Shown here: positions 3,203-12,601 of the stretch, piece after piece
Layout: every line of letters begins with the position of its first letter
Numbering within the stretch: position 1 is the first letter of the stretch
Origin: Vescimonas coprocola
Lineage (GTDB): Bacteria > Bacillota > Clostridia > Oscillospirales > Oscillospiraceae
DNA: 64,000 nt
Assembly: GCF_018408575.1 (NCBI RefSeq)
Contig: NZ_AP023418.1
Span: 2,322,415 to 2,386,414, forward strand
Reading direction: 5' to 3'
Program-made: the position numbers and the translations under genes
The notes under the pieces: model-generated
Database searches by the model: none
Seen by the model: only the letters and a program-made list of their open reading frames with translations
What the model was told of the DNA's origin: nothing

Positions 3203-4371
<1,169 letters not shown>

Positions 4372-4486
4372 CTCCGGCAAAACCTCCTCAAACTTCAGCC
4401 GAAAGTCATGCATTCCTGATAGATATCTCCGGTCTGCTTTGTGTTTCCTTTCCCGTCAAAGCCCCTCTCTGCCGGAAGGATATCAA

Positions 4487-4528
4487 AAGCAGCGGGCTGC
4501 CGGATATACCGGCGGCCCGCTGCTTTTT
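4487..4528 (+). terminator. intrinsic terminator after the thiolase operon
   Basis: A 17-bp stem with one mismatch and a 5-base loop is followed by a run of five T. It lies 115 bases after the thiolase stop. Confidence 0.8.
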
Positions 4529-4581
4529 ACCCTATATCCCGTGGCCGGGACATGACGGCGTACCCTCGCCGCCACGCAGAA

Positions 4582-4621
4582 AGCCCCAGCTCCGGCGCAG
4601 TGCTGCGCCGGAGCTGGGGCT
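4582..4621. terminator. bidirectional terminator between convergent operons
   Basis: A perfect 19-bp inverted repeat with a 2-base centre separates the plus-strand thiolase operon from the minus-strand ABC exporter genes. It sits 20 bases after the last ABC stop codon. The T-tracts are weak on both sides. Confidence 0.65.
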
Positions 4622-4640
4622 GTTTGCTCTGATATGTGCT

Positions 4641-6482
4641 TTATTGGGCGCTGCCCTCGCCCAAGATGCGGGCGGCGCTCTCCTGAGTGAACTGCTTGCT
4701 GTACAGGTCGTGGTAGTACCCCTTGCGCCGCAGCAGCTCCTCATGCTTGCCTTGCTCCACGATGTGGCCGTCTTTCACCACCAGGATCACGTCCGCCTTG
4801 CGGATGGTGGAGAGACGATGGGCCACCAGAAAGGAGGTGCGGTTCGTCAGCAGATGGTCGATGGCGTTCTGGATCAGCTGCTCCGTCTGGGTGTCGATGG
4901 AGGAGGTGGCCTCATCCAGCACGAAGATGCGGGGGTCGGCCAGCACGGCACGGGCAAAGGAGATCAGCTGCTTCTCGCCGGTGGAGAGACGGTCGCCGCC
5001 CTCACCCACATCGCTGTCCCAGCCATTTTCCAGCTTGTCCACCACCGTATCCGCCGACACGGCCCGTGCGGCGGCCTCCACCTCCTCGTCGGTGGCGTCC
5101 AGCTTGCCGTAGCGGATGTTCTCCCGGACGCTGCCGGAGAACAGGTGGGGATTCTGCAGCACATAGCCGATGTTGGAGTGGAGCCACAGCTGGCTGCGCT
5201 GGCGGTAGTCCACGCCGTCAATGAGGATCTGTCCCTCCGTAGGCTCAAAGAACCGGCAGGCCAGATTGATGAGGGTGCTCTTGCCGGCCCCCGTCTCGCC
5301 TACGATGGCCACCGTGGTCCCCTGGGGGATGTGGAGGGAGAAATGCTCCAGCACGTTCTCGCCGCCGTCGGGATAGCGGAAGGTCACATCCCGGAATTCG
5401 ATCTCGCCCCGCAGCGGCTCCCAGTTCTCCCGCTTGGGGTGGAAGGCATCGCCGTATTTCTCGATGACCTCCGGGGTGTCCTGAATTTGCGGCTGTTCGT
5501 CCATCAGGTCGGTTACCCGCTCGATGGAGGCTTGCAGAGAGATGAACTCCGCCAGATTGGCGGCGGTCATCTGGATGGGGTCAAAGATACTGACAGCATA
5601 GGTGGTAAAGGCCGACAGAGTGGCCAGCTCCAGCGCCTGATCCAGCACCATATAGCCGCCCCGCAGCAGCACGATAGACACCGCCATGGTGCCGAAGAAC
5701 AGCACCAGCGGGATAAACACCGCATTAAGCCGGGCTGCCCGGATGCCGGAGTCGTGCATCTGTCGGGTGAGACTGCGGAAGGCGTCGGCGGTCTGCTCCT
5801 CCGTCACCAGCGTCTTGGTGGTGCGTGCGCCGGTGATGCCCTCGTTGAAGGCTCCGGTGATGCGGGAGTTCAGCTTACGCACCTTCCGGTTCCAGTGGAG
5901 GATGCGGTTCTGAAAATACCCAGTCAGAATGGCCATCACCGGCACAATGGCGATGACCGCCAGCGCCAGCTTCCAGTTCAGCGCCAGCATGGCGGCAAAG
6001 GTACCCAGCACATAGAACATTGCCCACAGGATATCCGTAAAGTTCCACGCCAGCATACTGGAGATGCGGTTGGTGTCGCTCATGACACGGGTCAGCAGAT
6101 AGCCCACCGGTGTCACGTTATAAAAGGAGAAGGACAGGGTCTGCAAATGGTGAAACAATGCCCCACGCATATCCTTGCCCAGATTCATCTCGATGTGCAT
6201 GGAGTTTCGGGCAAAGATCACCACCGACAGGGCCTGCACCAGAATGACCGCCAGATACGCCAGTGCATAGGGCAGCAGCCCTGTCAGGGTGTTCTTTTCG
6301 ATGAAGTTCTGGATGGCGTACTTCTGGAACAGGGGCAGCACCACGTCCACCAGAGCGCAGATGCCGTTGAACACCAGCATGGACACGAAGGCCCCCCGAT
6401 AGGGCCGCAGGAACGGCCCCAGCCGCTTCCAGATCCTCCAGTCGAAGGATTGGGTATATTCCTTTTCGTCAATGGCCGCCAT
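4641..6482 (-). CDS. ABC exporter half-transporter, second subunit of a heterodimer
   Basis: This 613-residue protein has a six-helix membrane domain followed by an ATPase domain. Walker A is GETGAGKST near residue 394, Walker B with the catalytic glutamate is IFVLDEATSSID, and the H-loop is VAHRLST. The signature is LSTGEKQ instead of LSGGQ, which marks a degenerate site. An in-frame extension upstream exists, but the ATG at 6482 has an AAGGGGGG site at the right distance. The gene starts 14 bases inside the preceding ABC gene. The pair resembles BmrCD/LmrCD-type multidrug exporters. The exported compound is unknown. Confidence 0.9.
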   Translation of the reverse strand: MAAIDEKEYTQSFDWRIWKRLGPFLRPYRGAFVSMLVFNGICALVDVVLPLFQKYAIQNFIEKNTLTGLLPYALAYLAVILVQALSVVIFARNSMHIEMNLGKDMRGALFHHLQTLSFSFYNVTPVGYLLTRVMSDTNRISSMLAWNFTDILWAMFYVLGTFAAMLALNWKLALAVIAIVPVMAILTGYFQNRILHWNRKVRKLNSRITGAFNEGITGARTTKTLVTEEQTADAFRSLTRQMHDSGIRAARLNAVFIPLVLFFGTMAVSIVLLRGGYMVLDQALELATLSAFTTYAVSIFDPIQMTAANLAEFISLQASIERVTDLMDEQPQIQDTPEVIEKYGDAFHPKRENWEPLRGEIEFRDVTFRYPDGGENVLEHFSLHIPQGTTVAIVGETGAGKSTLINLACRFFEPTEGQILIDGVDYRQRSQLWLHSNIGYVLQNPHLFSGSVRENIRYGKLDATDEEVEAAARAVSADTVVDKLENGWDSDVGEGGDRLSTGEKQLISFARAVLADPRIFVLDEATSSIDTQTEQLIQNAIDHLLTNRTSFLVAHRLSTIRKADVILVVKDGHIVEQGKHEELLRRKGYYHDLYSKQFTQESAARILGEGSAQ

Positions 6483-8328
6483 GCTCGCTCCCCCCTTCCT
6501 CCAGCAGCGCCCGGTCGGCACTCTGCATCTGAATGTGATAGATATCCCGGTAGATGCCGGGCTTTTCCACCAGTTGGGCGTGAGTCCCCAGCTCCGCCAC
6601 CCGGCCGCCGTCCAGCACCAGAATGCGGTCGGCCTGCATCAAGGTGGTGACCCGGTGGGAGATCAGCAGCACCGTGGCCTTGCCGGTAGACCGGCGCAGG
6701 GCGGTGCGGATCTTCTCGTCCGTCTCGGCGTCCACGGCGGACAGGGAGTCGTCGAAGATCATCACCGGGGCCTGCTGCATCAGCATCCGGGCGATGGCCA
6801 CCCGCTGCTTCTGTCCGCCGGAGAGAGTCACGCCCCGCTCCCCCACGATGGTGTCATACCCCTCCGGGAAGGAGGTCACCGCCTCGTCCACGCAGGCGAT
6901 GGCCGCCGCACGGCGCATGGCATCCTCCGGCGCATCGGGGCGCACAGCCCGGATGTTCTCCCCGATGGTCTGGGAGAACAGGAAGGGCTCCTGCAAAACA
7001 AGGCCAATGTGCCGCCGCAGGTCGCTGCGCCGGATGTGCCGCAGGTCCACACCGCCGATGGTGATGCGGCCGGAACCCTCCGGCACGTCGTACAGCCGGT
7101 CCAGCAGATGCACCAGCGTGCTCTTGCCGGAGCCGGTGCCGCCCAGCACGGCGAAGGTCTCCCCCTCCCGGATGGTGAAAGACACATCCTTCAGCACAGG
7201 CTGCCCCTCGTAGCCGAAGGTCACATGGTCAAATACGATGTCCCCGCCGGGGAAGGGAACGTCGTCGGGCTGCTCCTGCTCCTCCGGGGAGCGGAGGATG
7301 TAGCCCACACGGTCCATGGACACCCCGGCCTTGCTCATGTCCGACAGCACCCGGCCCAGAGAACGCACGGGCCACGCCAGGGACTCGTTGTAGCTGACGA
7401 AGGCCACGAAGGCGCCCAGAGTCATGGCTCCCGCCACGCTCTCATGGATGCCCGCCAGAATGATGACCATCACCTGCAGGCACGTCAGCAGCGTCCCCGA
7501 CGCCCAGTATACCGACAGGAGCTTTCCCAGATGGATCCACAGTCCGGCATATCGCTCGCTCTTGGCCTGAAACTTGTCCTCCTCATACTTCTCCCGGCCA
7601 AAGGCCCGCACCACCCGCACGGCGGTGAGGTTCTCCTGAGCGCAGGCGGTCACCTCGCCCTCGGCCTCGTCGGCAGTCTTGAACCGGGAGGAAATCTTCC
7701 GGTAGAATACCCCCGACGACAGGCCCACAATGGGGATAAAGGCCAGAGCGATCAGGGACAGTTTCACGTTCATGCGGAACATGATCCACAGATACAGGAT
7801 GATGAGGAACACCGTCCGCACCACCTCCACCAGCTGGTTGCACACGAAGGTGCGGATCACGTCCACATCGGAGGTGCAGCGCTGGATGATGTCGCCGGTG
7901 GGGTGCTGCTTGTGCCACGCAAAGGGCAGATACTGGATGCGCCGGTACAGGTCATCCCGCAGCCCCTTGACGTAGGCCTCGGACCCACGGGACAGCTGCG
8001 CCCGCTGCCCGAAGCTGCACAGGCCCCGCAGCAGCGCCGTCACCATGACGGCCCCCGCCGCCCACCACAGCGCCGTGACAGGCTCCTGCCGCAGCGTCTC
8101 CAGCGGCAGCACCCGCAGCACCAGCGCCGGCAGCTTGGCCTCCTCGGATCCCAGAATGGAGTCCACCGTGATACGGATGATCTGGGGCGTCAGGGCGTTG
8201 AGCGCCATGGACAGGCACGCACACAGCAGCGCCGCCGCAAAATGCCCCCAGCAGGGGCGCAGATAGTGCCAGATGAGCCCGGCCTTCTCCCGCCCCGACA
8301 GCTTGAATGTCGATCGATTCTCTTCCAT
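6469..8328 (-). CDS. ABC exporter half-transporter, first subunit of a heterodimer
   Basis: This 619-residue protein has a six-helix membrane domain and an ATPase domain. Walker A is GGTGSGKST near residue 393, the signature LSGGQKQR is canonical, and the H-loop is ISHRVTT. After Walker B the catalytic glutamate is replaced by aspartate (VMIFDDSLSAVD). That substitution, with the altered signature in the partner, predicts one active and one degenerate ATP site, the usual arrangement of heterodimeric exporters. The start at 8328 has AAGGAGG a few bases upstream. It is transcribed from the promoter at 8547-8575 through a leader peptide and a terminator. Confidence 0.9.
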   Translation of the reverse strand: MEENRSTFKLSGREKAGLIWHYLRPCWGHFAAALLCACLSMALNALTPQIIRITVDSILGSEEAKLPALVLRVLPLETLRQEPVTALWWAAGAVMVTALLRGLCSFGQRAQLSRGSEAYVKGLRDDLYRRIQYLPFAWHKQHPTGDIIQRCTSDVDVIRTFVCNQLVEVVRTVFLIILYLWIMFRMNVKLSLIALAFIPIVGLSSGVFYRKISSRFKTADEAEGEVTACAQENLTAVRVVRAFGREKYEEDKFQAKSERYAGLWIHLGKLLSVYWASGTLLTCLQVMVIILAGIHESVAGAMTLGAFVAFVSYNESLAWPVRSLGRVLSDMSKAGVSMDRVGYILRSPEEQEQPDDVPFPGGDIVFDHVTFGYEGQPVLKDVSFTIREGETFAVLGGTGSGKSTLVHLLDRLYDVPEGSGRITIGGVDLRHIRRSDLRRHIGLVLQEPFLFSQTIGENIRAVRPDAPEDAMRRAAAIACVDEAVTSFPEGYDTIVGERGVTLSGGQKQRVAIARMLMQQAPVMIFDDSLSAVDAETDEKIRTALRRSTGKATVLLISHRVTTLMQADRILVLDGGRVAELGTHAQLVEKPGIYRDIYHIQMQSADRALLEEGGSEHGGH

Positions 8329-8397
8329 AAGCCTCCTTCTCTCTCCCGGCGGCCCGCAGACCGCCTGTCCAAACGCCGCCGGCATCCGGCAGCGTAC

Positions 8398-8425
8398 AAA
8401 AAATGCGCCCCCGGACGGGGACGCA
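8398..8425 (-). terminator. attenuator-type intrinsic terminator upstream of the ABC exporter
   Basis: On the minus strand a 9-bp GC-rich stem (one G-T pair, 4-base loop) is followed by six T. It lies after the leader peptide stop and 70 bases before the first ABC gene, so it can stop transcription before the exporter genes. Confidence 0.8.
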
Positions 8426-8441
8426 CACAGAGTACGGTCAC

Positions 8442-8464
8442 ATCGGCCCCTTTATCGGGCCGAT
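8442..8464 (-). promoter_or_regulatory. hairpin overlapping the end of the leader peptide
   Basis: ATCGGCCC and GGGCCGAT form a perfect 8-bp stem with a 7-base loop that includes the leader stop codon. A ribosome stalled or terminating here would block this stem, and this could change folding of the downstream terminator. Confidence 0.55.
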
Positions 8465-8514
8465 CCGGCGGCGCACACGATGATCCCCTTACTGGTCAGC
8501 TTGATCTTCGTCAT
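8452..8514 (-). CDS. leader peptide of the ABC exporter operon (20 aa)
   Basis: A short ORF starts with ATG at 8514 and ends with TAA. Its product reads MTKIKLTSKGIIVCAAGSAR. The AAAGGAGG ribosome site is 7 bases upstream, as strong as any in the window, and the ORF begins about 30 bases after the predicted transcription start. It is followed by a terminator and then the exporter genes. This arrangement resembles the BmrB leader of the Bacillus subtilis bmrCD operon, where translation of a small ORF controls read-through. The peptide itself is not recognised. Expression and stalling are inferred. Confidence 0.6.
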   Translation of the reverse strand: MTKIKLTSKGIIVCAAGSAR

Positions 8515-8546
8515 GGTGTACGCCTCCTTTCGTTTATAGTGAGTAC

Positions 8547-8575
8547 AGTATAACGCCGTATGAGTATCCTGTCAA
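8547..8575 (-). promoter_or_regulatory. housekeeping sigma promoter for the ABC exporter
   Basis: On the minus strand TTGACA, a 17-base spacer and TATACT give a near-perfect promoter. Such strength upstream of an attenuator fits constitutive initiation with control at termination. Confidence 0.85.
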
Positions 8576-8617
8576 GAAAAGTTTTCCGCCCCGGCGGCGG
8601 AGAGTCGTCTCCCCCTC

Positions 8618-8645
8618 TTGCATTTTTGGAAAAATAGGGTATGAT
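8618..8645 (+). promoter_or_regulatory. candidate promoter for the COG0523 GTPase cluster
   Basis: TTGCAT, a 16-base spacer and TATGAT lie 54 bases before the start codon. No Zur-like palindrome was recognised in the region. Confidence 0.5.
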
Positions 8646-8698
8646 ATAAGAGAAAAATTGTCCTCTGCCATGGTGGAGGAGAAAAGAAGGGTTGTTTT

Positions 8699-9907
8699 AT
8701 GACAAAAATCGACATTGTATCGGGTTTTCTGGGCGCCGGTAAGACCACGCTCATCAAGAAGATGCTCAGCGAGGCCTATCAGGGCGAGAAGCTGGTACTC
8801 ATTGAAAACGAGTTCGGGGAGATCAGCATCGACGGCGGTTTCCTGAAGGATTCCGGCGTGCAGATCAGCGAGATGTCCTCCGGCTGCATCTGCTGCTCTC
8901 TGGTGGGTGACTTCAACAAGGCTCTGCGCCAGGTCCATGAGCAGTTCGCCCCGGACCGCATCCTCATCGAGCCCTCCGGCGTAGGTAAGCTCTCCGACGT
9001 TATCGTGGCGGTGGAGAACACCGTTCGGGACGAGCCGGATATGAAGCTGAACTCCTTCGTCACCGTGGCCGACGCCACCAAGGTGAAGGTGTATATGAAG
9101 AACTTCGGTGAGTTCTACAACAATCAGATCGAGTCTGCCGGCACCATCATCCTCTCCCGGACCCAGAAGCTGTCTCAGGAAAAGCTGGAGGCCGCCGTGG
9201 CTCTGCTGCGGGAGAAGAATCCCACCGCCGCCATCCTCACGACCCCGTGGGACCAGCTGGACGGCAAGACTCTGCTGTCCGCTGTGGAAAAGGTCTCTCT
9301 GGCCGATGAGCTGCTGGCCAGGATGCAGGCCGAGCACGAGGCGGAGGAGGCGGAGCACCACCATCACCACCACGACCATGATGAGCATGATGACCATGAC
9401 GAGCATCACCATCATCATGACCACGACGAGGACGAGGGCCACTGCTGCTGCGGCCATCACCACGACGATGATGACGATGACGACGAACATGAGCATCACC
9501 ATCACGAGGGCTGCTGCCACCATGACCACGAGGAACATGACCACCATCATGACCACGACGAGCATGAGCATCACCATCACCATGACGGCGAGTGCGACGA
9601 CCCGGAGTGCTCCTGCCACCACCATCACCACCACGCCGACGAGGTGTTCACCAGCTGGGGCGCCGAGACGGTCCACTCCTACACGGAGGAGGACATCCGC
9701 CGCATCCTGACGGCGCTGGATACCGGCGACTACGGCGCCATCCTCCGGGCCAAGGGCATCGTTCCCAGCGGCGGCAAGTGGCTGCACTTCGACTATGTCC
9801 CTGAGGAGCAGGACGTCCGCTACGGCAGCGCCGACTACACCGGCCGCCTGTGCGTCATCGGCGCCCAGCTGAAGGAGGACAAGCTCAAAGAGCTGTTCAG
9901 CCTGTAA
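8699..9907 (+). CDS. COG0523 (CobW/ZNG1-like) GTPase with long His/Cys/Asp-rich metal-binding tract
   Basis: This 402-residue protein begins with the P-loop GFLGAGKTT (residues 9-17). It has the metal-binding CxCC motif in SSGCICCSL and the Walker B region ILIEPSG. The G4 position reads SRTQ instead of NKxD, so guanine specificity is in doubt. Residues about 219-312 form a tract with roughly 44 histidines, 8 cysteines and many aspartates, which must bind several metal ions such as Zn, Ni or Co. The CobW C-terminal domain follows. It heads a three-gene plus-strand cluster. The likely role is GTP- or NTP-dependent metal delivery or storage in the cytoplasm; the metal is not determined. Confidence 0.9.
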   Translation: MTKIDIVSGFLGAGKTTLIKKMLSEAYQGEKLVLIENEFGEISIDGGFLKDSGVQISEMSSGCICCSLVGDFNKALRQVHEQFAPDRILIEPSGVGKLSDVIVAVENTVRDEPDMKLNSFVTVADATKVKVYMKNFGEFYNNQIESAGTIILSRTQKLSQEKLEAAVALLREKNPTAAILTTPWDQLDGKTLLSAVEKVSLADELLARMQAEHEAEEAEHHHHHHDHDEHDDHDEHHHHHDHDEDEGHCCCGHHHDDDDDDDEHEHHHHEGCCHHDHEEHDHHHDHDEHEHHHHHDGECDDPECSCHHHHHHADEVFTSWGAETVHSYTEEDIRRILTALDTGDYGAILRAKGIVPSGGKWLHFDYVPEEQDVRYGSADYTGRLCVIGAQLKEDKLKELFSL

Positions 9908-9929
9908 CACCTGTAAGGAGCGAGGAACT

Positions 9930-10859
9930 ATGGATATTCCTGTCTATCTCATCGCCGGGTTTCTGGATTCCGGAAAAACCGGCTTCATCAACGGTATCCT
10001 CCGGGACGGCTTTGCCGAGGAGGACCGCACCCTGCTGATCTGCTGCGAGGAGGGGGAGCTGGAGTACGACCCCCGTGTGCTGGGCAATGTGTTCACCTAC
10101 ACGGTGGACGAGCAGAGTCAGCTGACTCCGGAGCTGTTCAAGAAGCTGGAGAAGCAGTACCGGCCCAAGCAGGTCATCATCGAGTATAACGGTATGTGGA
10201 TGATCGAGCCTCTGTACCGGGACGGCCTGCCTGCCAACTGGATCCTCTACCAGATCATGTGTCTGGTGGACGCCAGAAGCTTCGAGATGTATGTGAAGAA
10301 TATGGGCCAGCTGATGATGGAGAAGATCAGCAACGCCGATATGCTGATCTTCAACCACTGCAACGAGGAGCTGCGGGCCCAGCTCCGCAGCCGCAACCTG
10401 CGGATGGTGAACCGCCGGGCCGATATCTATCTGGAGAACGAGGACGGCACCAGTGAGGAGTACGTCACTCCGGAGATGTCCCCCTTCGATCTCTCCGACG
10501 GCCATCTGGATGTGCCGGACGACGACTACGGTGTCTGGTATGTGGATATGATGGACAACCCCGACCGCTATGACGGTGTCACCGTGCGGTATAAGGCCGT
10601 CATGTGCCACTCCAAGAAGTTCAAGGGTGTCCACTGCCCCGGCCGCTTCGCCATGGTCTGCTGCGAGAACGATATGCAGTTTTTGGCTCTGGTGGCCAAG
10701 GGCGAGGGGCTGGAGAGGTTCAAGAACCGCCAGTGGGTGGAGATCACCGCCACGGTGAAGAAAGAGGCCAATGACGCCTATCAGGGCGAGGGCCCGGTGC
10801 TGTATGTCACCGCCATCGCCCCCTGCGAAAAGCCCAAGGAGGAGGTCGTCTCCTTCTGA
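9930..10859 (+). CDS. CobW-like P-loop protein fused to a TIGR03943/DUF1980-like C-terminal domain
   Basis: This 309-residue protein has an N-terminal P-loop AGFLDSGKTG (residues 9-18) related to CobW GTPases. The CxCC metal motif is absent; ICCEEGE occupies a nearby place. From about residue 185 it resembles the C-terminal half of YcgQ/TIGR03943 proteins (GVWYVDMMDNPDRYDG, RFAMVCCENDMQF). It follows the His-rich GTPase by 22 bases with its own ribosome site, so the two are probably cotranscribed. YcgQ/YcgR pairs are linked to zinc-dependent transport in other Firmicutes, which suggests a metal-chaperone partner here. The fusion call is from motif resemblance only. Confidence 0.65.
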   Translation: MDIPVYLIAGFLDSGKTGFINGILRDGFAEEDRTLLICCEEGELEYDPRVLGNVFTYTVDEQSQLTPELFKKLEKQYRPKQVIIEYNGMWMIEPLYRDGLPANWILYQIMCLVDARSFEMYVKNMGQLMMEKISNADMLIFNHCNEELRAQLRSRNLRMVNRRADIYLENEDGTSEEYVTPEMSPFDLSDGHLDVPDDDYGVWYVDMMDNPDRYDGVTVRYKAVMCHSKKFKGVHCPGRFAMVCCENDMQFLALVAKGEGLERFKNRQWVEITATVKKEANDAYQGEGPVLYVTAIAPCEKPKEEVVSF

Positions 10860-10918
10860 CGATCCTCCGGCCTAGTTGTGTGTAAACCATGTGAAAGAGA
10901 GAAAAGGAGAACTACCCC

Positions 10919-11896
10919 ATGACTCAAAAAGAAAAGACCTTTCTGGACCAGACCGCCCAGCGTCTGCATCTGACGGTGGACGGCGAGAGCAGCATCCTCT
11001 TCGGCAGCGTCGGCGGCTACCAGACCATGCTCTGGCGCAACGATCAGGGCCTTGCCGTTATGACCCTGTCCCTGCACAAGCTGGGGCAGGAGCCGGATCA
11101 GTCCGCCATCCGGCAATTCGTCAAGGGGACCCGTCTGGTGACGGGCGTCTCCGTCCGGCGCAGCCGGGTGGAGCTGACCCTGAATGTCCGCTTCGGCAAT
11201 CCCAATCAGGTGGAGAAGCTGGCGGAGGCCGTAGCCGCCGTGGTGGAGTTCCTGCACGCCTCCGGCTATGATAACTGCTGCCAGAACTGCGGCAGCGCCG
11301 TGGAGACGGACCCCTGCATCATGACCGGGGTCCCCTCCCTGCTGTGTGACAGCTGCTACCAGCAGCTGGGCCATCTGCAGGAGCAGAACCAGCAGGCGGA
11401 GCTGGGCAAGAAGGAGAACGTGGTGGCCGGCACCGTGGGTGCGCTGCTGGGTTCTCTGCTGGGCGTGGCGTGCATCGTGCTGCTGGGCCAGCTGGGCTAC
11501 GTGGCGGCAGTCAGCGGTATCGTCATGGCCATCTGCACCATGAAGGGCTATGAGCTGCTGGGCGGCCGGTTCTCCACCGTGGGTCTGGTGGTCAGCATCG
11601 TGCTGATGCTGGGCATGACCTACGTGGGCTACCAGCTGGATTGGTCCGTCGCCGTCTATAACGAGCTGAAGGACTACTACGAGCTGAGCCTGTTGGACTG
11701 CTTCCGCATGATCCCGGAGATGCTGCGTCAGGAGATCATCGATTCCTCCACCTACATCGGGGAGCTGGTGAAGCTGTATGCCTTCACGCTGCTGGGCGCC
11801 ATCCCCACGGCCATCAGCTCCATGAGAAGCCGGAAGCTGAAGAAGGTCACTTACCGTCTGCGCTCCCAGCGCACCAACGCCGCCCCGGAGCTGTAA
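10919..11896 (+). CDS. zinc-ribbon membrane protein of unknown function
   Basis: The protein has 325 residues. The N-terminal 115 residues are soluble. A four-cysteine zinc ribbon follows (CQNCG about residue 122 and CDSC about residue 142). At least three hydrophobic segments come next (for example GTVGALLGSLLGVACIVLLG) and the tail is basic. A ribosome site GGAGA is about 7 bases before the ATG. It is the third gene after the two CobW-like proteins and is closed by a strong terminator, so it may be a membrane component of the same metal-handling function. I do not recognise a named family. Confidence 0.75.
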   Translation: MTQKEKTFLDQTAQRLHLTVDGESSILFGSVGGYQTMLWRNDQGLAVMTLSLHKLGQEPDQSAIRQFVKGTRLVTGVSVRRSRVELTLNVRFGNPNQVEKLAEAVAAVVEFLHASGYDNCCQNCGSAVETDPCIMTGVPSLLCDSCYQQLGHLQEQNQQAELGKKENVVAGTVGALLGSLLGVACIVLLGQLGYVAAVSGIVMAICTMKGYELLGGRFSTVGLVVSIVLMLGMTYVGYQLDWSVAVYNELKDYYELSLLDCFRMIPEMLRQEIIDSSTYIGELVKLYAFTLLGAIPTAISSMRSRKLKKVTYRLRSQRTNAAPEL

Positions 11897-11907
11897 TAAA
11901 CCAAAAA

Positions 11908-11944
11908 AACAGGAGGCCGCAGGCATTGTCTGCGGCCTCCTGTT
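11908..11944. terminator. bidirectional intrinsic terminator
   Basis: A perfect 15-bp stem with a 7-base loop has an A-tract before and a T-rich tract after it. It serves the plus-strand metal cluster and the minus-strand lipoprotein gene. Confidence 0.85.
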
Positions 11945-11962
11945 TATTTGTTTCGCCTTGGC

Positions 11963-12601
11963 TTACGCCTGATAGAACAGCTCCGCCAGATCGGCGGTGA
12001 TATCCTCCGTCCAGCTGCACATGGTCACGCAGCACATATAGCCCTCCTGCTTGATGCACACCAGCGTCTCATACATGGGGACGCCGTCCATCTCGCCGGA
12101 GATAACAGCGCCCTCCCGAACCAGACCGGCGAACTGCACCGGAGTCTGCTCCACCTTCACGTTGGATAGCCCCATGGAGGCCAGAGCATCTTCCAGCTTG
12201 GGTACGGCGATCTCCAGATAGCCCGCCTCGTCCAGCAGCTTGCCGTACAGAGCGCCCAGATCCTCATACACCACGTTTATGGTCACAAGGCCCTCCATGG
12301 CGCTGGCGAACATATCATAGGTGCTCTTGCCATCCTCCATGGCCTTCTGCATCTCCTCGCTGCTCTCGGCCACCACGCCGGACAGCTCTGCCAGCTGCTC
12401 GTCGGTGTAGTAGGTCCAGTCATCGCTCAGCTGGCAGCCGATGCCCACGAAGGTGTTGGTGTAAATGCCGTTTTCAATCGTGCCACGCTGGAAGCCGGAT
12501 TGGCTGTCGCCGCCGTCTCCGTCCTTCTTACCGCAGGCGGCCATGCTCAGCACCAGTACCAGCGCCAGCAGCAGACCTGCGGCCCGTTTCATCTGCTTCA
12601 T
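11963..12601 (-). CDS. lipoprotein of unknown function
   Basis: This 212-residue protein begins with a basic stretch and the hydrophobic signal LLLALVLVLSMAAC, where the cysteine is a lipobox. A Gly/Asp/Ser-rich linker follows, so the protein should be anchored on the outer face of the membrane. The rest is soluble and acidic with no recognised domain. The ATG at 12601 is chosen because it starts directly at the signal peptide and has a GGAGG site upstream; the longer frame would add unlikely residues. It is transcribed alone from a promoter with a 16-bp palindrome at its start site. Confidence 0.8.
   Translation of the reverse strand: MKQMKRAAGLLLALVLVLSMAACGKKDGDGGDSQSGFQRGTIENGIYTNTFVGIGCQLSDDWTYYTDEQLAELSGVVAESSEEMQKAMEDGKSTYDMFASAMEGLVTINVVYEDLGALYGKLLDEAGYLEIAVPKLEDALASMGLSNVKVEQTPVQFAGLVREGAVISGEMDGVPMYETLVCIKQEGYMCCVTMCSWTEDITADLAELFYQA

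Follow-up and report, generated by a model that had tools for sequence, protein, structure and literature searches.

Ribosome-read leaders and the exporter locus

In amino-acid attenuators of the trp type, a ribosome reads mutually exclusive 1:2, antiterminator and 3:4 structures. Three described leaders lie closer to the element analyzed here. In the vmlR leader of Bacillus subtilis, a 3-codon upstream ORF (uORF; MIN) lies in a 5′ anti-antiterminator hairpin, with its Shine–Dalgarno element (SD) ahead of the hairpin, and a stalled ribosome opens this structure. The leader also has an antiterminator, an intrinsic terminator and a further hairpin between anti-antiterminator and terminator, and the gene it controls encodes an ABCF ATPase (PMC9226507). 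In the cplR leader of Clostridioides difficile, a 5′ hairpin sequesters a tripeptide uORF (MR[I/M]) whose start codon is needed, stalling forms an antiterminator, the terminator also hides the cplR SD, and the target is likewise of the ABCF type (PMC10201436). The bmrB leader of B. subtilis precedes bmrCD, which encodes a heterodimeric multidrug ABC exporter, and its inducers are chloramphenicol, erythromycin and lincomycin. This leader ORF has 53 codons; a predicted anti-antiterminator, antiterminator and terminator fall within nt 60–162 of bmrB, the terminator being inside the ORF (PMC4191407). A 2010 survey of premature terminators gives 205 attenuation candidates before ABC transporters. 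Among the literature matches listed, whose scope takes in few subscription papers, no comparable exporter leader was described in the bacterial group considered here.

The window is a 64,000-nucleotide stretch of the Vescimonas coprocola genome (contig NZ_AP023418.1). Its minus strand carries the following elements:

8547..8575 (-): promoter TTGACA-17-TATACT, matching the consensus at 11/12 positions
8530-8523 (-): SD AAAGGAGG, read directly
8516..8530 (-): ribosome-binding site AAAGGAGG plus region 1 (GGAGGCGUACAC), proposed 5′ strand of an anti-antiterminator
8452..8514 (-): leader ORF from an ORF scan, 20 codons, MTKIKLTSKGIIVCAAGSAR, stop codon TAA
8480..8489 (-): segment a (AGGGGAUCAU), proposed 5′ strand of an antiterminator, partner being the terminator 5′ arm plus loop (from coevolution over 28 clusters)
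8470..8478 (-): region 2 (GUGUGCGCC), pairing with the SD strand 8524-8516 and containing TGCGCC
8442..8464 (-): stop-codon hairpin ATCGGCCC-gataaag-GGGCCGAT, 8 bp
8398..8426 (-): intrinsic terminator plus T tract; hairpin 8426-8403, made of region 3 (8426-8417), loop (8416-8413) and region 4 (8412-8403), with the T tract at 8403-8398
6469..8328 (-): ABC exporter half 1, 619 aa, Walker B IFDDS (Asp replacing the catalytic Glu), signature LSGGQ
4641..6482 (-): second ABC exporter half, 613 aa when counted from its ATG at 6482; Walker B VLDEA has the Glu, and the signature, LSTGE, is degenerate

The initial annotation of this DNA had placed a near-perfect promoter, a 20-codon ORF with a ribosome site, a hairpin over its stop codon and an intrinsic terminator with six T ahead of the exporter genes. 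All of these were recovered: the promoter by direct reading and by scan, the ORF (8514-8452) with its SD, the stop-codon hairpin with a fraction of 1.0 of 200 shuffles below it, and the terminator, followed by the exporter ATG at 8328. The segment 8541-8320 (222 nt) folds better than its shuffled versions (z –4.4; 0/200). The helix with the best conservation was absent from that annotation; it joins the SD strand (8524-8516) to 8478-8470, inside the ORF. Searching Rfam with the leader gave no match at the gathering score, the sole hit being ncS54 (E 0.48, 17.4 bits versus 43). Downstream of the terminator and ahead of the exporter SD is a second GC-rich hairpin, CGCTGCCGG-ATG-CCGGCGGCG (8393-8373), which has no T tract.

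The exporter genes overlap by 14 bases. Both products contain ABC_membrane and ABC_tran domains and match the B. subtilis YheI/BmrC and YheH/BmrD chains (E 2.7e-83 and 2.3e-90), with other ABCB (ABCB1-type) proteins outscoring these chains. One degenerate ATP site can be read from the sequence, given by IFDDS in half 1 and LSTGE in half 2. Heterodimers with one such site typically show a Walker B of the IFDDS type together with a degenerate signature. From family resemblance, we infer that the pair exports drugs. On the plus strand, 8699-10859 contains a divergent pair of CobW-family genes; a long stretch rich in His and Asp marks the first, and a DUF1980_C domain the second.

How does this leader compare with the described systems? 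The parts of an attenuator, namely a promoter, a translatable leader ORF and an intrinsic terminator before the gene, are all present, and we collected 50 leaders of this kind. As in vmlR, a uORF in a putative 5′ anti-antiterminator hairpin is followed by an antiterminator and an intrinsic terminator, with a further hairpin between anti-antiterminator and terminator (PMC9226507); as in cplR, a 5′ hairpin sequesters the uORF, and stalling would form the antiterminator (PMC10201436). The start region of the ORF lies in the putative anti-antiterminator, the 1:2 helix including the SD strand, a role that we assign from folding. In vmlR, by contrast, the SD precedes the hairpin, whereas here the SD strand itself is the 5′ arm. 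Very short uORFs with conserved codons and an ABCF target, which mark vmlR and cplR, are not seen; the ORFs at the equivalent place have 20–39 codons across the 50 leaders, without evident peptide conservation, and the product is a membrane exporter with ABC_membrane and ABC_tran domains. A terminator that hides the gene's SD likewise sets cplR apart. With bmrB the locus shares a leader ORF and attenuator before a pair of ABC half-exporters, here probably a heterodimer, and the three predicted structures, but the terminator comes after the stop codon (PMC4191407). The initial annotation likened the layout to BmrB-bmrCD; this stands for the exporter, which is BmrCD-like, whereas the switch logic is closer to that of vmlR and cplR. 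Unlike trp-type attenuators, the leader has no control codons, and its SD is one of the arms. It shares parts of vmlR/cplR and of bmrB and has the full set of defining features of neither. Our best reading is a switch of the vmlR/cplR kind, made of anti-antiterminator, antiterminator and terminator, whose ORF is long and poorly conserved and which precedes a BmrCD-like exporter.

Conservation and distribution

Leaders were found via relatives of the exporter proteins, by reading the DNA upstream of their genes. The parser required an SD, an ORF of 12–45 codons, a terminator and the best SD:ORF pairing. Parsing of 64 upstream regions gave 54 candidates and 10 regions without a leader; L042, L093, L100 and L101 were dropped as doubtful, leaving 50. 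In 43 of these 50, the window's included, an 11-of-12 promoter lies at most 110 nt from the SD.

Conservation in related genomes was the main check that the initial annotation proposed, and it came out in favor. Wherever the upstream DNA could be read, exporter orthologues with an identity of 66% or more had a leader (47 of 47), a count that includes the window's own and the later-fetched L162; L026, L033 and L079, also at or above 66%, had too little upstream DNA and stand outside the 47. On the antisense strand of the same regions, the arrangement was parsed in 0 of 50. At 60–64% exporter identity, leaders were seen in L082, L083, L089 and L091 and were absent or doubtful in L042, L087, L088 and L090. 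No clear leader was found in 28 loci below 60% identity. The parsed upstream regions of L043–L059 and L102 showed no clear leader. Relatives without a locus (all but G329 at most 54% identical) and L009–L020 (23–32%) were left out. On a tree of 48 rows, from 50 that were chosen less L031 and L047, the leader label needs 2 changes, versus a mean of 15.7 when shuffled. Leaders occur in taxon groups f1, f13, f23 and f26; the three closest named exporter loci are from Clostridia/Ruminococcaceae MAGs, two from animal gut and one placed in Oscillospiraceae. Taken across these relatives, the element is real and conserved, and it is very probably an attenuator.

When 300 genomes of the family were searched for DNA resembling the leader, 4 short matches turned up outside its own genome, 0 of them before this exporter, and none of the leaders located by other routes within those same genomes was recovered. 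A covariance model, run on 300 family genomes, gave 13 strong matches (E up to 2.6e-8), all before this exporter; 10 of these 13 genomes had contributed rows to the model. This search scored 10 of several hundred first-look candidates per family genome and 150 of 755 in the own genome, so rarer copies of the leader before other genes may be missed. The sole other match among the scored candidates of the own genome (E 7.7e-5) lacks the leader layout, and the gene after it is presumably Obg-like. Sixteen matches with E of 2e-5 to 1e-3 were inspected singly and judged to be ordinary gene starts or terminators, except for L122, at a metN gene. A weak match, L124, concerns a gene in which an in-frame TGA, probably encoding selenocysteine, occurs close to the start; we take this gene to be selD-like.

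L122 (G207), L132 (G152) and L133 (G077) have methionine-rich leader ORFs, with 8 Met in 29–30 codons (e.g. MAGRDGMMMAMGMMRMPTLPRARFPHVTR), which combine with a promoter and a terminator before a MetN-like importer gene. Such leaders occur in all 3 genomes of genus g77 that were read and in 0 of 28 other metN loci read; on inspection by eye, L122 alone shows a clear SD:ORF pairing. Judged by its sequence, a Met-rich leader before metN looks like a methionine attenuator, and a related layout may here be adapted for amino-acid control. No description of a Met-rich metN leader was found among the literature matches listed.

Among 32 genomes of the genus, some of them incomplete, an orthologue of this exporter is found in the own genome only; the remaining genomes have at best a 51% relative (E up to 1e-100). 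The operon may therefore have arrived horizontally. The tree places the window's exporter with f13 rows (L084, L085) as well as with f1, which suggests that exporter and leader (4641-8575) were transferred together. Plasmid records searched for the exporter yielded one 44% relative.

Pairing strands and ribosome position

All of the first 22 leaders show 1:2 pairing, between the SD strand and the 3′ part of the ORF, at a mean energy of –21.2 kcal/mol for cognate and –16.9 for swapped partners. Leaders were then grouped into 28 clusters by average linkage, in place of 8 single-linkage clusters that were too loose. Over the 28, cognate 1:2 pairing differed from swapped pairing with z –10.4, and shuffle z was below –1 in every cluster. 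In a covariation alignment that took in 31 of the 50 leaders, 7 of 10 pairs of the 1:2 helix had changed on both sides (90.9% of cells paired), as had 6 of 7 terminator pairs. Overall, 91.4% of cells were paired, compared with 83.1% after shuffling and at most 65.5% in slid controls. In 13 of 28 clusters, a hairpin at the stop-codon position outdoes at least 90% of the shuffles made from it; as a universal leader element it fails in the other 15.

For pairings able to compete with the terminator, we compared cognate with swapped partners across the 28 clusters, seeking segment a in the last 20 nt before region 2. Coevolution was clear between segment a and the combined arm 3 and loop (z –5.7, p 5e-5), and weaker with arm 3 alone, the loop excluded (p 0.002). 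Loop-less pairing using the whole ORF gave p 0.05 over 50 leaders and 0.52 over the 8 loose clusters. The remaining upstream ORF showed no coevolution with arm 3 plus loop (p 0.78), and neither did four gap-segment controls (p 0.36 to 0.997); one gap control reached p 0.034 in the 8 loose clusters. Examples of a:3 are CUCAGAGG:CCUCUGAG in L008, UUCUGGGA:UCCCAGAA in L032 and AGAGGGGC:GCCCCUCU in L027. L162, added after the test and outside it, carries CCAGAGGG immediately 5′ of its region 2, and its terminator contains CCCUCUGG. The pairing is modest in the window itself (–12.2 kcal/mol; shuffle z –1.2), poor in L007 (near segment), L035 and L082, and below shuffle z –1 in 15 of 28 clusters.

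Partial leaders were folded up to, and excluding, arm 4, and the energy holding region 3 (arm plus loop) was recorded. Averaged over the 28 clusters, the hold rose from 6.4 kcal/mol in the ribosome-free state to 11.7 under a start ribosome, an increase seen in 26 of 28, and stood at 10.9 when the ribosome covered a and region 2. The start state was cognate-specific (11.7 versus 8.4 for swapped partners; z 7.9, p 5e-5), and no cognate specificity was seen for the late ribosome (p 0.45) or without a ribosome (p 0.72). On these models, a ribosome held on the start codon or first codons is probably the inducing state.

Could a ribosome stalled late, over a and region 2, instead free the SD strand so that 1:3 pairing blocks termination? 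Such a late ribosome leaves region 3 pairing mainly with the SD strand in most of the 22 leaders, and it gives the window's strongest hold, 12.7 kcal/mol versus 10.6 with the start ribosome; the window's 1:3 pairing (–16.9) is also stronger than its a:3. Against shuffles, 1:3 reaches z below –1 in 25 of 28 clusters when the SD strand is shuffled and in 18 when the arm is; by this measure a:3 appears no stronger than 1:3, and coevolution alone separates the two. There, 1:3 gives no clear signal (p 0.07–0.11), in line with late-state holds that are the same for cognate and swapped partners. The pairing is weak in L039–L041 and L032 (–5.3 to –9.4), the window's terminator wins at equilibrium with a ribosome on any of codons 9–20, and a freed SD strand would also be accessible to a second ribosome. 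We consider the late stall unlikely.

Full-length folds of the window were computed with a ribosome on each leader codon, as the initial annotation had suggested, and they predict a ribosome-position switch. P(terminator) is 0.97 without a ribosome and 0.06, 0.16, 0.14 and 0.34 with one on codons 0, 1, 2 and 3, respectively; it is 0.96–0.97 on codons 4–7, 0.48 on codon 8 and 0.89–0.97 on codons 9–20. With a smaller or larger ribosome mask the start effect covers codons 0–2 or 0–4, and other mask sizes give dips to 0.31 on codon 9 and 0.73 on codon 7. In silico, then, the RNA has an alternative fold that precludes the terminator and depends on where the ribosome sits, but the equilibrium folds of most homologues do not switch. 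The full-length fold keeps the terminator despite the start ribosome in 24 of 28 clusters; antitermination would therefore have to be kinetic. Only 4 clusters, the window's among them, fall below P 0.5 with the start ribosome, and one of these (L082) is low in every state.

The structure that displaces the window's terminator under the start ribosome is 2:4, the pairing of TGCGCC (8475-8470) with GGCGCA (8409-8404) that the initial annotation had put forward as the antiterminator. It coevolves weakly at best, giving p 0.014 both in the 28 clusters and in the 50 leaders and p 0.05–0.27 under other definitions or in smaller sets. Region 2:4 would also compete late, because arm 4 is made after the neighbouring arm 3, and, as noted, few clusters lose the terminator at equilibrium. 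The proposed pairing thus holds for the window's fold with an early ribosome and does not generalize; that 2:4 is the antiterminator in all such leaders seems improbable. As a conserved antiterminator, both 1:3 and 2:4 were rejected for want of clear coevolution.

The initial annotation also spoke of a leader peptide. Its ORF and ribosome site stand, and the peptide is doubtful as a sensor. Across 23 pairs of related leaders, substitutions fell 90/85/99 by codon position (86/69/75 upstream of region 2), and no codon-position constraint on the peptide was seen; this absence could also reflect little translation of the ORF. Peptide-specific arrest of the ErmC-like kind, or amino-acid counting by the ORF, would account for the strong ribosome site, for a C-terminal Leu-Arg-Ala or Leu-Cys-Ala that recurs among the peptides and for the frame of region 2, which at one alignment column is identical in 23 of 31 aligned leaders. 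Yet the peptides are otherwise mostly dissimilar between clusters and lack homopolymeric runs, the pairing bases themselves encode the recurring residues, and the frame differs in 8 of 31, all of which makes this explanation very unlikely. The frame shared by the 23 leaves room for some peptide preference there. An even spread of region 2 over the three frames (20/17/13) was discarded, as the count depended on each duplex's starting point. In 49 of 50 leaders, the distance between the end of region 2 and the stop codon is –1 to 16 nt. Openness of the ORFs in frame 0 is partly imposed by the parser, and in-frame indels were not used as proof of translation, ORF lengths being multiples of three by construction. 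These comparisons suggest that the conserved part of the leader is mainly RNA, not peptide.

Least credible is an ordinary terminator of a small transcript, with an exporter unregulated by the leader and expressed from its own promoter downstream of 8398: the further hairpin between terminator and exporter start might fit it, but in a sigma-70-type scan of window positions 4000-12000 the leader promoter is the sole minus-strand site of 2 reaching 9 of 12 (shuffled DNA gives 1.9 at that threshold), and the leader array is kept just before this exporter clade.

A proposed switch and its meaning

The explanation we favor, and hold to be probably correct, is a ribosome-read transcription attenuator in which a:3, joined by 2:4 in the window, captures the terminator under a start-held ribosome. 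The strong promoter would give a leader of about 140 nt, counted from the predicted start site. While no ribosome occupies the start region, the SD strand (1) would form an anti-antiterminator with the 3′ part of the ORF (2); arms 3 and 4 could then pair with each other, and transcription would stop at 8398. A ribosome translating to the end of the ORF would cover a and region 2, with mostly the same result. A ribosome held at the start or first few codons, for example by drugs that block the first peptide bonds, would cover strand 1 and free a and region 2. Freed a would then capture arm 3 plus loop in most homologues, and in the window region 2 would also pair with the loop and arm 4. With the terminator captured while being made, polymerase would read on into the exporter. 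We infer translation of the ORF, the order of events and the inducing state from sequence and folding, and the role of ribosome-targeting drugs as inducers from family resemblance.

That the exporter is regulated by ribosome-mediated attenuation is, in our judgment, highly likely. A switch kept in dozens of relatives without peptide conservation has the appearance of a genuine sensor for blocked protein synthesis. More tentatively, and at longer odds, the leaders may form a peptide-independent attenuator class of the Oscillospirales type, in which the SD strand serves as anti-antiterminator and reports a start-codon-held ribosome whatever the drug, the long ORF being a track for the switch strands.

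If this is true, many uncultured gut-type bacteria would silence an export pump until ribosomes become stuck as translation begins, and RNA pairing would make the sensor recognisable despite DNA too diverged for a DNA search. The 28 divergent leader clusters would offer a natural set for asking how start-codon occupancy becomes antitermination. Inducible efflux in the group would then be predictable from genomes and testable with simple reporters.
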